A stretch of 64,000 nt of DNA from Oxalobacter formigenes (GTDB lineage: Bacteria > Pseudomonadota > Gammaproteobacteria > Burkholderiales > Burkholderiaceae_D). The notes beneath the pieces are model-generated. The model was not told the origin of the DNA. It saw only the letters and a program-made list of their open reading frames with translations, and did not search any database. The stretch covers positions 451,242 through 515,241 of the forward strand of contig JAMPAN010000001.1 in assembly GCA_023667225.1 (NCBI GenBank), given 5' to 3'. A program made the position numbers and the translations under genes. Below, one piece after another: positions 13,949-63,911 of the stretch (positions are counted from its first letter, which is position 1; every line of letters starts with the position of its first letter).

Positions 13949-13981
13949 AAAAAAAGGGAGAGGTTTTCTCTCCCTTTTTTT
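13949..13981. terminator. Bidirectional intrinsic terminator between cpoB and the FNR-like gene
   Basis: A 7-bp stem GGGAGAG/CTCTCCC (13956-13962 with 13968-13974) around a GTTTT loop, flanked by seven A on the left and seven T on the right. It therefore works in both directions and serves the convergent cpoB and crp/fnr-type genes. Confidence 0.9.
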
Positions 13982-16767: not shown

Positions 16768-16795
16768 TTGCTTTTCACCTGGCTTTCTTTATAAT
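16768..16795 (+). promoter_or_regulatory. Sigma-70 promoter of the btu operon
   Basis: TTGCTT (16768-16773) and a perfect TATAAT (16790-16795) are separated by 16 bp. Transcription would begin just before the riboswitch aptamer. Confidence 0.7.
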
Positions 16796-16799
16796 CCGG

Positions 16800-17010
16800 T
16801 TTCTCTGGTGCCCGCGGATGTGTTTGATTCGCGGTTAAACGGGAAACACGGCGCCGGATTTTCCGGCCAACGTGTGCTGCCCCCGCAACGGTAAGCAAGT
16901 GTCTTTGACGGTTTGTTCTATTACGCCACTGTGCAGTTTTGCATGGGAAGGCAGGACAGATTTTCCTTTTGTTTTTCTGTGGAAGACTTGCAGCCCGGAT
17001 ACCGGCCAGA
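16800..17010 (+). promoter_or_regulatory. Cobalamin riboswitch
   Basis: Landmarks of the class I adenosylcobalamin aptamer occur in order: GGTGCC at 16807, TTAAACGGGAA at about 16834, GCTGCCCCCGCAACGGTAAGC-type core at 16876-16896, CCACTG at 16926, GGGAAGG at about 16945, and the B12 box AGCCCGGATACCGGCC at 16992-17007. Downstream, a perfect hairpin CCTGCG-GGGA-CGCAGG (17116-17131) lies 13 nt before the btuB Shine-Dalgarno. With no U-run after it, control is more likely translational than by termination. Confidence 0.95.
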
Positions 17011-17156
17011 TACAGGTGACGTAGCAGGAACGGGCGGTTCCGGAAACCTTTTTCCCTTTGTGCAGAGGGATTTGTTTTTCGTATCAGGGCAGTTCCTCAC
17101 GTTGTTCAAATGAAGCCTGCGGGGACGCAGGTATTGCATTTTCGAGGAGTGTCTTT

Positions 17157-32096: not shown

Positions 32097-32172
<76 letters not shown>

Positions 32173-32206
32173 GCCTGATTCAGGTTGGCTGAAACGGGAA
32201 AGCAGT

Positions 32207-32281
32207 GTCTCCATCGTCTAATGGTTAGGACACCACCCTTTCACGGTGGGAATAGGGGTTCGACTCCCCTTGGAGATGCCA
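32207..32281 (+). tRNA. tRNA-Glu (anticodon TTC), copy 1
   Basis: A 75-nt cloverleaf with encoded CCA. Acceptor GTCTCCA pairs with TGGAGAT; the anticodon stem CCACC/GGTGG holds loop CTTTCAC with anticodon TTC; the T arm is AGGGG-TTCGACT-CCCCT. It matches copy 2 over its whole length. Confidence 0.96.
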
Positions 32282-32316
32282 GATTTTCTGACAGAATTTT
32301 CTTTGGAAGAGGCAGT

Positions 32317-32391
32317 GTCTCCATCGTCTAATGGTTAGGACACCACCCTTTCACGGTGGGAATAGGGGTTCGACTCCCCTTGGAGATGCCA
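32317..32391 (+). tRNA. tRNA-Glu (anticodon TTC), copy 2
   Basis: Identical to copy 1 across 75 nt, including CCA. The preceding five bases GCAGT are also shared, so the repeat unit is about 80 bp at 110-bp spacing. This points to tandem duplication. Confidence 0.96.
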
Positions 32392-58472: not shown

Positions 58473-58501
58473 TTGCGATTATATATGTAGTTGTATATAA
58501 T
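58473..58501 (+). promoter_or_regulatory. Promoter of the rimP-nusA-infB operon
   Basis: TTGCGA (58473-58478) and a perfect TATAAT (58496-58501) have an optimal 17-bp spacer. Transcription would start near 58508 and give a leader of about 110 nt. Confidence 0.75.
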
Positions 58502-58545
58502 AAGAAATTGACCTGGCGTTTGAAAGAATATAGCAAAACGGGAAG

Positions 58546-58569
58546 ATGGGCGTATGCCCATTTTTTTTT
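58546..58569 (+). terminator. Terminator-like hairpin in the rimP-nusA leader (candidate attenuator)
   Basis: ATGGGC-GTAT-GCCCAT (58546-58561) is followed by an unbroken run of nine T (58561-58569). It sits between the promoter and rimP, facing rightwards, and no other rightward gene lies before it. The stem is only 6 bp, as in factor-assisted terminators. Confidence 0.7.
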
Positions 58570-58617
58570 CATTACAGTCAGGGAAAACATGAGGGAAGCG
58601 GTTAACCGGAGGCGGGC

Positions 58618-59100
58618 TTGTTGCAGGGATTGATAGAAAAGACCGTAAAAGGTTGCGGTTATGATGTAATTGATGTGGAACGGGCGTCCGGCGGACTTTT
58701 GCGCGTATATATTGATTTTTTACCGGAAGAGGCTGATCGCGGCAGTATTACGGTAGAGGACTGTGAAGCAGTCAGCCGCCAGTTATCTTATGTGCTGGCG
58801 GTTGAAGATGTGGATTATGAGCGTCTGGAAGTTTCATCGCCCGGTCTGGACAGGCCGCTGAAACGCTTGTCGGATTATATCCGCTTTGCGGGAATGGAAG
58901 CCAGTATCAAGCTGCGCATGCCTGTTGAGGGCATGTCAAACCGGCGGGTTTTTCAGGGTATTTTGCAAGAGCCTGACGGAGAGGAGCTGGCGCTGGAATT
59001 TGATACGAAAGAAGGCGCGGCGTTATTGCACTTTTCTCTTTCTGATGTAGATAAGGCACGGTTGGTGCCACAGGTGAATTTTAGGGGCCGAAAAAAATGA
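58618..59100 (+). CDS. rimP: Ribosome maturation factor RimP (TTG start)
   Basis: A 160-residue factor needed for 30S subunit maturation. [22 protein letters not shown] near the N-terminus and [21 protein letters not shown] near residue 78 are family hallmarks. No ATG is available: tandem TTG codons at 58618 and 58621 follow GGAGG (58608-58612), with 5 and 8 nt spacing, and either may be used. Its stop overlaps the nusA ATG as ATGA. The order rimP-nusA-infB-rbfA-truB is the classic translation operon. Confidence 0.9.
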
Positions 59101-60656
59101 GTTTCGAAATTCTGCAACTGGTTGATGCGCTTGCACGCGAAAAAAATGTCGACAAGGAAATTGTCCTGGGCGCGCTGGAGCATGCCTTGGCTTTGGCAAC
59201 AAAAAAACGTTATCCCGGCGAAGTGGATATCAGGGTGGCCATTGACCGTAAGACAGGCGAGTTTGAAACTTTCCGCAGATGGCATGTGGTTCCCGATGAG
59301 GCGGGACTCCAGCTGCCGGATCAGGAGATTTTGCATTTTGAGGCCAGGGAACAAATTCCCGATATTGAGGTGGATGATTATCTGGAAGAGCCTGTTGAAT
59401 CGATTGATTTTGGCCGCCGTTTTGCGCAGGATACCAAGCAGATTGTTTTGCAGCGTATCCGTGATGCGGAGCGGGAGCAGATTCTCACGGATTTCCTGGC
59501 GCGCGGCGATGCGATGGTTACCGGTACGGTCAAGAGGATGGAGCGTGGCGATGCCATTTTAGAGTCCGGCAAGGTGGAGGCGCGCCTGCCGCGGGATCAG
59601 ATGATTCCAAAGGAAAACCTGCGGGTAGGCGACCGGGTGCGCGCCTATATTTTGCGTGTGGACAGAAATGCCCGGGGGCAGCAGATTATTCTTTCCCGGA
59701 CGGCACCGGAGTTTATTATCAAGTTGTTTGAGCTGGAAGTGCCGGAAATGGAACAGGGGCTGCTTGAAATCAAATCCGCTGCCCGTGATCCCGGCGTGCG
59801 TGCCAAGATTGCTGTTTTTACGAATGACAAACGGATTGATCCGATTGGTACTTGTGTGGGTATCAGGGGATCGAGGGTGCAGGCTGTGACGGGCGAACTG
59901 GGCGGCGAGCGCGTGGATATTGTGCTGTGGTCTGATGATCCGGCGCAGTTTGTGATTGGGGCGCTGGCACCGGCCAATGTTTCGTCTATTGTGGTGGACG
60001 AAGAACAGCATGCCATGGATGTGATTGTGGATGAGGAAAATCTGGCAATTGCTATTGGCAGGAGCGGCCAGAATGTCCGTCTGGCTTCCGAGTTGACTGA
60101 TTGGAAGATCAATATCATGACGGCTGAAGAGTCGGCTGATAAATCGGCTATGGAAACAGCGGCTGTTCGTTCTCTTTTTATGGACAGGCTGAATGTGGAT
60201 CAGGAAGTGGCCGATATCCTGATTGAGGAAGGGTTTTCCGCGCTGGAGGAAATTGCGTATGTTCCTCTCAATGAAATGCTGGAAATAGAGGCGCTTGATG
60301 AGGAAACGGTTAATGAGTTGCGTACCCGTGCGCGCGATGCGCTGGTAACAGAGGCGCTGGCCCTGGAAGAGGGGATAGCCGATATGGAGCCGGAGCTGCT
60401 CAATCTTGAGGGAATGGACAAAAGTACGGCCGGAAAGCTGGGGCTGGCGGGTATCAAGACGCTGGCAGATTTCAGCAGCCTGGCCTATGATGAGTTTGGC
60501 GCGATTCTTGCTTTGCCGACTGAACGGGCGCGCCAGCTGGTTGAGAGCGGCTTTGAGGATGTGACGGATGATGAGATGGCGCTGATTGATGCGCGGTATG
60601 ACGAGCAGGCCAAGGCATTGCAGGCGCGCGTATGGGAAATCACCGAGACGAAGTGA
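59097..60656 (+). CDS. nusA: Transcription termination/antitermination factor NusA
   Basis: A 519-residue factor that binds RNA polymerase and nascent RNA. The N-terminal domain covers about 1-125, S1 about 135-200 ([16 protein letters not shown]), and KH domains about 225-345 with [22 protein letters not shown] and [15 protein letters not shown]. Two C-terminal acidic repeats follow (about 365-425 and 440-510). It is coupled to rimP by a 4-bp overlap and followed by infB after 56 bp. In other bacteria NusA represses its own operon through leader terminators. Confidence 0.96.
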
Positions 60657-60712: not shown

Positions 60713-63481
60713 ATGGCGACTAATAACGTAGCTCAATTTGCTGTAGAACTGAATATGCCGGCTGAAGCGCTGCTGAATCAGTTGCGTAATGCGGGCGTTG
60801 AAAAAAAATCAGTTAACGATTCCTTGACGAATGCGGATAAGGACAAGCTGCTGAATTATTTGCGCGGAGCGCATAGCAGTGTGCCTGACGCCAAGAAAAA
60901 GATTTCGTTGACGCGTAAAGAGACGACTGAGATCAAACAGGCGGATGCATCGGGCAAGTCGCGGACGATTCAGGTGGAAGTTCGCAAGAAACGCACTTTC
61001 CGGCGTGAGGAAGTGCCTGTTGTGGAAAAGAAAGTTCCTCATAAGGCCCCGGCGCCGATTATTGATGAGGCAGAGCAGAAAAAGCGGGCGGAAGAAGCGC
61101 ACCGCCAGGCGGAGCTGATTGCCCGCCAGGAAGCGGAACTGCGGGAAAAACAGGCTAAACTGGCCAGGATTGAGGCAGAGAAGGCGGCCCGTCTGAAGGC
61201 GGAAGAAGAGGCTCGCAGAGCTGCCGAGTTGAAGGAAAAAGAGGCTGCCGCTGCTGTAGCGCCAGTACAGCCGGCAGAGGAAAAAACCGCTGAAAAAGCC
61301 GTAAAGAAACCGGAAAAAGCACCCGATAAAGTGCCTGAAGCTGAAAGAACCCGGCAGGCGGTAGAAGATGAGATTGCGCAGATCAAGGCCATGATGGCTG
61401 CGCCTAAAAAAGTGGTCCGGCCGCCAGAAGTTCAGGAAAGCGAGGACGTCAAAAAGAAAGACGTGACTTTGCGCCGTCCGGCTGACAAGAAACCGGCAGA
61501 GGCCAAGGAGGAGAAAAAAGGTTCAGGCGAGAAGAAATCAATCAAGTCTGCCGATGTGGCCTCTATCTGGCAGGAAGAAACGGCAAAAAAACGCGGTACA
61601 GGTCTCAAGACACGGGGCGGCGCTATGCCTGCCCGTGAGGGGTGGCGAAGCGGCGGTTCCAAGAACCGCAAGAGCCAGCAGGCGGCAGAACGGGAAAGCA
61701 ATTTTCAGCAGCCGACAGAGGCGATTGTCAGAAATATTTATGTGCCTGAAACGATTACGGTGGCAGAACTGGCGCACCAGATGGCTGTAAAGGCATCTGA
61801 GGTGATTAAACAGCTCATGCTGCTGGGGCAGATGGTGACGATTAATCAGGTGCTGGATCAGGAAACGGCAATGATTCTGGTGGAGGAGATGGGGCATAAG
61901 GCGTTTGCCGCCAAAATTCAGGATCATGAGGCCGAACTGGCTGCCATGGGTGAAAACGCAGATGCGGAATGGCTGCCAAGAGCGCCTGTGGTGACTGTGA
62001 TGGGCCATGTGGATCATGGCAAGACATCGCTTCTGGATTATATTCGCAGAACAAAGATTGCTTCCGGCGAGGCTGGCGGTATTACTCAGCATATTGGCGC
62101 GTATCATGTGAAAACGCCCAATGGCGTGATTACTTTCCTGGATACGCCTGGGCATGAGGCTTTTACTGCCATGCGTGCCCGCGGCGCCAAGGCAACGGAT
62201 ATTGTTATTCTGGTTGTTGCTGCTGACGATGGTGTGATGCCGCAGACGAAGGAGGCTATTGCCCATGCGAAAGCGGCAGGTGTTCCCCTGGTTGTCGCTA
62301 TTAACAAGATTGATAAGTCAGGCGCCAATGTAGAGCGTGTGACCCAGGAACTGATTGCGGAAGAGGTGGTGCCTGAACAGTATGGCGGGGATTCGCCTTT
62401 TGTGCCGGTTTCTGCCAAAAGCGGTCAGGGGATTGATTCTTTGCTGGAAAATGTGTTGCTTCAGGCTGAAATACTGGAACTCAAGGCACCGGTGGATGTG
62501 CCGGCAAAAGGTCTGGTTATTGAGGCGCGTCTGGACAAGGGGCGCGGCCCTGTCGCAACGGTGTTGGTGCAGTCCGGTACGTTGCACAAAACGGATGTGG
62601 TTCTGGCTGGCCAGGAGTTTGGCCGGGTACGTGCGATGTTAAACGAAAGCGGCAAGGCGATTACAACGGCTGGCCCCAGTATTCCGGTTGAAATTCAGGG
62701 GTTGACAGGAGTGCCGGCAGCAGGCGAAGAGGTGCTGGTGCTGGCTGATGAGCGCAAAGCGCGTGAAATTGCGCTTTTCAGGCAGGGCAAGTTCCGGGAT
62801 GTGAAACTGGCAAAACAGCAGGCAGCGAAGCTGGAAAATATGTTTGACCAGATTGCGGAAGGGGAAGTGAAGGCTTTGCCGCTGATTATCAAGACAGATG
62901 TACAGGGATCGCATGAGGCATTGACTGCTTCCATGCTCAAGCTTTCCAATGATGAGGTGCGGGTACAGATTGTCCATGCCGCTGTTGGCGGTATTACAGA
63001 ATCTGACGTGAATCTGGCAGTGGCCTCACATGCTGTTATTATCGGTTTTAATACCCGTGCAGACGCGCAAACACGGGCGCTGGCTGAAACTCACGGTATT
63101 GATATCCGTTATTACAATATTATTTATGATGCTATTGATGATGTGAAGGCTGCCATATCCGGTATGCTGGCGCCAGAGAAACGGGAGCAGGTTCTGGGTA
63201 TGGTGGATATCAGACAGGTGATCCATGTCAGCCGAATCGGTTCTATTGCCGGCTGTTTTGTCATGGAAGGGCTGGTCAGGCGAAGCGCTATGGCGCACTT
63301 GTTGCGCGATAATGTGGTGATCTGGACGGGCGAGATTGATTCGCTTAAACGTTTCAAGGATGATGTGCGCGAGGTCAAGGCAGGTTTTGAATGCGGCCTT
63401 ACCCTGAAGGGGTATAACGATATCAAGGAAGGCGATCAGCTTGAGATTTATGAGGTTCAGGAGATTGCCCGAACCTTGTAG
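60713..63481 (+). CDS. infB: Translation initiation factor IF-2
   Basis: A 922-residue GTPase delivering initiator tRNA. The N-terminal IF2-N domain (about 5-55) is followed by a long Lys/Glu/Ala-rich helical linker (about 100-330), a second IF2-N-like segment near 350 ([21 protein letters not shown]), and the G domain from about 420 with [12 protein letters not shown] (G1), DTPGHEAF (G3) and NKIDK (G4). Domains II to IV complete the protein to the C-terminal fMet-tRNA-binding part. Total length is typical for the group. Confidence 0.96.
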
Positions 63482-63518: not shown

Positions 63519-63911
63519 ATGACAAAGCGCAACCGATCCATGCCGGATCGTAGCCTTCGGGTGGCAGACCAGATCCAGAAGGATTTATCTGAAATTCTGG
63601 CTTTTGAGCTGAAAGATCCCCGTGTTGGTATGGTGACGATTACCGAGGTTCAGGTAACGCCTGACTATGCTTATGCCAAGGTTTTTTTCACTATGCTGGA
63701 TGACAGCGAGGAAGCTGTCAGGGAAACGTTGCAGGGGCTGGGGAAAGCCGCAGGTTTTATCCGCAACCAGCTGGGCAAGCGTTTGCATATCCACACTTTG
63801 CCGCAGTTACGCTTTGAATATGACCGTTCTGTTGTGCGTGGTATGGCGCTTTCCGAGCTGATTACCCAGGCCAATTCACAGCGTTTGCCAGATGATGACG
63901 AATCGGTTTGA
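63519..63911 (+). CDS. rbfA: Ribosome-binding factor A
   Basis: A 130-residue KH-like protein acting in 16S rRNA 5' end maturation and cold adaptation. [43 protein letters not shown] and [19 protein letters not shown] are typical. It starts 37 bp after infB and is followed by truB after 27 bp. Confidence 0.95.

Follow-up and report, generated by a model that had tools for sequence, protein, structure and literature searches.

What is the function of the short hairpin that stands between a promoter and rimP in the rimP-nusA-infB-rbfA operon of Oxalobacter formigenes? The question was raised by a stretch of 64,000 nucleotides (nt) of this species (GCA_023667225.1, contig JAMPAN010000001.1, positions 451,242-515,241 of the forward strand), called the window below, in which a preliminary description had recorded a good promoter followed, about 40 nt on, by a 6-bp hairpin with nine T, and had proposed that the two form a NusA-responsive attenuator. 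The promoter, hairpin and T-run upstream of rimP-nusA-infB-rbfA are real and were confirmed as described, with the detail that the first T belongs to the stem (Table 1). The candidate attenuator in the operon leader is well supported by its position and strand, by the conserved promoter and by the conserved hairpin with its U-run. For O. formigenes we infer termination, its partial extent and its control by NusA. We consider it rather probable that the rimP leader acts by partial intrinsic termination and that the operon thereby exerts negative feedback on itself, with NusA as the most likely mediator. The termination part of this proposal draws on anatomy and conservation and the NusA step is suggested by precedent; taken as a whole, the earlier interpretation is partly supported.

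The proposed mechanism is simple. RNA polymerase would initiate near 58508 and transcribe about 50-60 nt. At the GGGC/GCCC hairpin and its U-run a fraction of the polymerases would terminate, and the remainder would continue into rimP-nusA-infB-rbfA. The terminating fraction would most likely be governed by a product of the operon, NusA being the leading candidate: a rise in NusA would raise termination, and this would lower NusA again.

Conservation of the hairpin and the T-run among relatives, which had been put forward earlier as a check, bore the description out. In all 13 genomes of the genus (own genome included) both promoter and hairpin are kept, and TATAAT starts 50-68 nt 5' of GGGC. 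The alignment of these 13 leaders, hairpin included, has a mean column identity of 49%; neither the arms ATGGGC and GCCCAT nor the T-run show any variation in it. The consensus fold consists of the six hairpin pairs only, without covariation; it contains no conserved antiterminator or alternative pairing, which fits termination modulated by a factor. A larger fold of the leader, with pairing of GAAAGAA to the U-run and of CCUGGC to GUCAGG (z -1.57, 15 of 200 shuffles as good), was rejected as a conserved antiterminator, as it is not in the genus consensus fold.

The same holds on a wider scale. Among 60 genomes (own genome included), 57 of which have rimP, the pattern GGGCN{3,8}GCCCATTTTTT gave 58 matches in 53 genomes. 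Fifty of these, assigned by hand, lie directly upstream of rimP on the rimP strand; the other eight are one antisense reading at a rimP site and seven matches elsewhere. The reversed control pattern gave four matches in the 60 genomes. We examined the leaders of 56 of the 57 genomes with rimP (G045 was left out; the motif is present in its whole-genome match), and the stem core GGGC/GCCC was found in every one. A strict rule (GGGC, a spacer of 3-12 nt, GCCC, one base and then six T) describes 53 of the 56 leaders; when the reverse strand is read, one of the 56 conforms. The other 255 four-base stems combined gave seven matches that do not overlap the hairpin. The three leaders outside the rule (G019, G024 and G046) keep GGGC/GCCC but have an altered or shorter T-run; in G046 the hairpin is GGGC TGCG GCCC, followed by AC and four T. 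The exact 23-base motif had no match in viral contigs.

GGGC and GCCC are separated by 3 to 12 nt in the 53 strict leaders (by 4 nt in 31 of them). In 15 the spacer can extend the pairing with inner pairs that differ from leader to leader (T/A, G/C, A/T and others), while the core stays constant. A plain terminator would not need a fixed core, therefore the element appears to be a terminator with an additional sequence constraint. It is possible, and we propose it tentatively, that the stem, besides terminating transcription, serves as a sequence-specific signal, with an operon-encoded or general factor (the KH/S1 domains of NusA or another) reading GGGC/GCCC as termination takes place, because this core is constant in the 56 leaders and common to Pseudomonas and E. 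coli, although a stem of any complementary bases would suffice for termination.

It must be noted that the statistics of the single window, taken alone, are suggestive and exceed chance only moderately; it is because of conservation across relatives that the hairpin stands out from chance. The promoter scores 10 of 12, and because five promoter-like sites were found in 2 kb where 1.5 were expected, a single promoter match is weak evidence by itself. The 6-bp stem has a folding energy of -8.6 kcal/mol (-13.9 with additional pairing between the 5' GGAAG and the U-run). The window has 74 T-run sites whose hairpin folds at better than -5 kcal/mol, though many of these may not be terminators; this stem ranks 47th among them, and the 'weak stem' of the preliminary description is therefore a fair one. 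A promoter and terminator scanner listed three terminator-like sites where 2.8 were expected, the hairpin at 58546-58561 not among them, probably because the scanner extends the stem into the T-run. Our own scan of the 64 kb for a perfect 6-bp stem followed by at least seven T in nine, on both strands, gave six entries at three sites; 60 first-order Markov sequences gave 0.78 on average and 4 at most.

The hairpin is also found upstream of rimP outside the 60 genomes. An exact search for its Burkholderia version in named genomes gave at least 119 stretches, and the 80 listed belong to Burkholderia, Paraburkholderia, Pseudomonas and two other Betaproteobacteria. This Burkholderia/Pseudomonas hairpin lies on the rimP strand, less than 400 nt upstream, in 114 of these 119 stretches; the other five end 16-265 bases past the hairpin, short of a recognisable rimP. 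In E. coli K-12, CTGGGCTTTAGGCCCTTTTTTT stands upstream of rimP.

Several observations weigh against feedback through NusA, or against a general link between this hairpin and the operon. Dependence on NusA is beyond what sequence alone reveals. NusA-responsive attenuators of B. subtilis have a weak hairpin and/or an interrupted U-tract. Compared with these, the O. formigenes hairpin is weak, but its U-tract has no interruption and might bring about termination without NusA. A sample drawn evenly from the phylum, beyond the initial 60 genomes, supplied 32 further leaders from the class (G426 and G146 are shortened by contig ends) and 27 from other classes (one for each family, out of 91 genomes with rimP). 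The motif with at least five T occurs in 18 of the 32 and in 1 of the 27; among the 32, two of the three leaders of the same order are positive and G079 is negative. The coupling of this hairpin form to nusA is therefore not universal. A looser pattern, with any base before the T, has four matches in the own genome, three of them distant from rimP, and occurs in 156 of 185 genomes of the class, a count from which linkage to rimP was not drawn; such hairpins are therefore also ordinary terminators, and the shape alone is ordinary. No split rimP/nusA operon was noticed in 140 genomes of the phylum, whose tables were read by eye only. RF01770, the rimP family of Rfam (cut-off 47 bits), matched neither the window nor the own genome, the latter searched with stricter filters. 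In E. coli, a fusion carrying the rimP 5' untranslated region and open reading frame had decreased expression in a Rho mutant, a result that the authors leave open (PMC7815308); other control therefore also acts in that species.

Two further observations belong to these surveys. A longer variant, AGTGGGC...CCCGCTC followed by T and missed by the motif used, is found in the rimP leaders of 4 of the 27 genomes from other classes (L263, L266, L267 and L277; for example AGTGGGCCCGAAAGGACCCGCTCTTTTTT). Among the 140 genomes 15 have no RimP_N match, and 12 of these 15 have a NusA_N match. None of the nusA leaders of six of these 12 has the motif (one is just 184 bases long, and G422 is reduced and AT-rich); in the remaining nusA leaders of that set an undetected divergent rimP may occupy the stretch.

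We have weighed the proposed feedback against other explanations. The hairpin could be an unregulated partial terminator, which lowers the output of the operon by a fixed factor without sensing NusA. The perfect U-tract and the simple hairpin agree with such a role, and the genus shows neither a conserved sensing domain nor a conserved alternative fold. A terminator of this kind needs pairing only, whereas all 56 leaders share GGGC/GCCC despite their differences in spacer and inner pairs, and repression of the operon by NusA is reported in other bacteria (PMC2965389, PMC12288461). We regard a fixed-factor terminator as unlikely. It is distinctly improbable, in our view, that GGGC/GCCC is read by a candidate other than NusA (RimP, NusG or a ProQ-like protein), with the terminated leader possibly persisting as a small RNA (sRNA). 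The constant stem core would suit such a reader, the E. coli rimP leader is listed among the ProQ-associated sRNAs derived from attenuators (PMC5391140), and feedback by RimP was also raised by Naville and Gautheret (PMC2965389). The inverted repeat ATGGGC-N4-GCCCAT is perfect and lies 3' of the promoter, as an operator for a repressor of the rimP promoter might; its spacer, however, varies from 3 to 12 nt, its distance to the -10 box shifts by 18 nt within the genus and the T-run is always on one side, that of the operon. The variable spacing and the one-sided T-run therefore indicate an RNA hairpin, and a DNA operator, which we consider very improbable, was rejected. A functionless chance hairpin, which the merely suggestive single-window statistics might allow, is scarcely credible in view of 50 of 58 matches upstream of rimP on its strand against four for the reversed control.

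If a factor does read the stem sequence as termination takes place, the rimP leader would be an intrinsic terminator gated by a protein and kept in evolution to provide feedback on the machinery of transcription and translation initiation. NusA, IF-2, RimP and RbfA are core factors, and their joint supply is probably set by this leader. The four constant stem pairs across the sampled relatives raise the question whether the sequence of the terminator is read, or its fold only.

The layout of the locus is summarized in Table 1. The promoter and the hairpin lie between two gene groups, rimP-nusA-infB-rbfA and the oppositely oriented parE-parC (the best match of parE, TIGR01055, scores 699.6 bits, slightly under the cut-off of 723.35). 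The transcription start is predicted near 58507-58510, about 38 nt from the hairpin.

Table 1. Elements of the rimP leader and genes of the operon, in window coordinates
Feature	Position	Strand	Remarks
sigma-70-like promoter TTGCGA-17 nt-TATAAT	58473-58501	+	by sequence; -35 58473-58478, -10 58496-58501
segment from -10 box to hairpin	58502-58545 (44 nt)	+	poorly conserved, without common antiterminator
terminator hairpin ATGGGC-GTAT-GCCCAT	58546-58561	+	arms ATGGGC 58546-58551 and GCCCAT 58556-58561
uninterrupted T-run, nine T	58561-58569	+	first T paired in the stem, eight beyond it
GGAGG, likely rimP ribosome-binding site	58608-58612	+	not part of the hairpin
rimP	58618-59100	+	NF000929, 210.9 bits (cut-off 147)
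nusA	59097-60656	+	TIGR01953, 400.4 bits (cut-off 253.4)
infB (IF-2)	60713-63481	+	TIGR00487, 847.7 bits (cut-off 424.4)
rbfA	63519-63911	+	TIGR00082, 106.7 bits (cut-off 51.15)

The start codon of rimP appears to be TTG at 58618, 48 nt from the end of the T-run at 58569, or the codon at 58621, judging from relatives. A crude start-codon caller chose TTG for 24 of the 35 family leaders and for 29 of all 56, and rimP of E. coli apparently also starts with TTG. If conserved, so rare a start codon might offer an additional point of control. Elsewhere in the window we noted a perfect palindrome that carries a T-run on each strand, resembling a bidirectional terminator (13956-13974), a cobalamin riboswitch on the + strand (16789-17024), and a tRNA-Ala gene with two tRNA-Glu genes in tandem (32097-32391).

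It is instructive to compare the leader with Rfam family RF02420 (Bp1_162, 'Burkholderia sRNA'). In the window this model matches at the hairpin on the opposite strand with 25.5 bits, below its cut-off of 50. We tested it on 18 of the at least 119 stretches mentioned above; all 10 Burkholderia and Paraburkholderia loci among them scored above the cut-off (L064, L065, L067, L069, L077, L078, L084, L087, L099 and L110; the 80 listed stretches include 18 loci of these two genera), and none of the eight others did. In all nine loci where rimP is present in the stretch the match is opposite to rimP. Along the rimP strand the match spans the rimP leader, with the -10 box at one end and the U-run at the other; thus in these loci RF02420 describes the same promoter-to-terminator leader, but is modelled opposite to rimP. 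The family does not seem to extend far: none of 100 sampled genomes of the order reached the cut-off, and there were two weak matches, one antisense to the rimP leader (G052) and one elsewhere (G039). According to the source paper the candidate, termed Burkholderia-specific, came from complementary DNA made with an oligo(dT) primer (PMC3521395), and nusA is absent from its main text (rimP and yhbC were not looked up). The RNA detected as Bp1_162 is probably the rimP leader, with the strand of RF02420 wrong, although it may be a true antisense RNA; a literature search on this question found no paper with both names. As RF02420 apparently describes rimP leaders on the wrong strand, it deserves a look. 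In three of the Paraburkholderia loci (L067, L084 and L099) we noticed by eye an extra potential hairpin, CCAGGTG-CGAC-CACCTGG, upstream of the terminator, which is not in the window leader.

RF01770 shares the gene context of the O. formigenes leader, but the model does not match there. Under the stricter filters it had matches in 4 of the 60 genomes, none of which reached the cut-off or lay at a rimP leader, and among 14 control genomes E. coli was the sole match. Its failure to match these leaders also deserves a look.

Among characterized systems, the nusA leader of B. subtilis follows the same scheme, in which termination in the leader sets entry into the gene; a review describes NusA as autoregulated there by NusA-stimulated termination (PMC12288461). 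According to this review the attenuation in B. subtilis was demonstrated by experiment; for O. formigenes it is proposed from sequence. The preliminary description had stated that nusA limits its own expression through leader termination in both B. subtilis and E. coli. The former part agrees with the review; for E. coli, terminators t1 and t2 upstream of rimP and regulation of the operon by NusA are described (PMC6511841), a description that does not extend to feedback through this terminator.

The closest counterpart is the rimP-leader attenuator described in 2010 by Naville and Gautheret, a short GGGc(...)gCCC terminator with a U-stretch upstream of rimP-nusA-infB (PMC2965389). According to their paper it took the top rank in the list of attenuated genes, is often overlooked owing to its short stem and has no visible antiterminator; NusA was proposed as the best candidate reader, and the authors cite NusA as a repressor of the E. 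coli operon (PMC2965389). A search of the available literature for an account of the rimP leader in Betaproteobacteria yielded this paper and one on a different topic. The O. formigenes element lies in the 5' leader of rimP-nusA-infB on the operon strand, its stem GGGC GTAT GCCC (58548-58559) has the described form, and its U-stretch (T 58561-58569) comes right after the stem. Its 48-nt distance to the gene falls in the described range of 4-130 nt, and the genus consensus fold, which is the hairpin only, has no conserved antiterminator. It differs from the description in that the hairpin of the Oxalobacteraceae relatives adds a flanking A-T and T-A pair. As all testable features of the 2010 description are present, we have filed the hairpin as a rimP-leader; the O. 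formigenes leader is a new member of an already described attenuator family.
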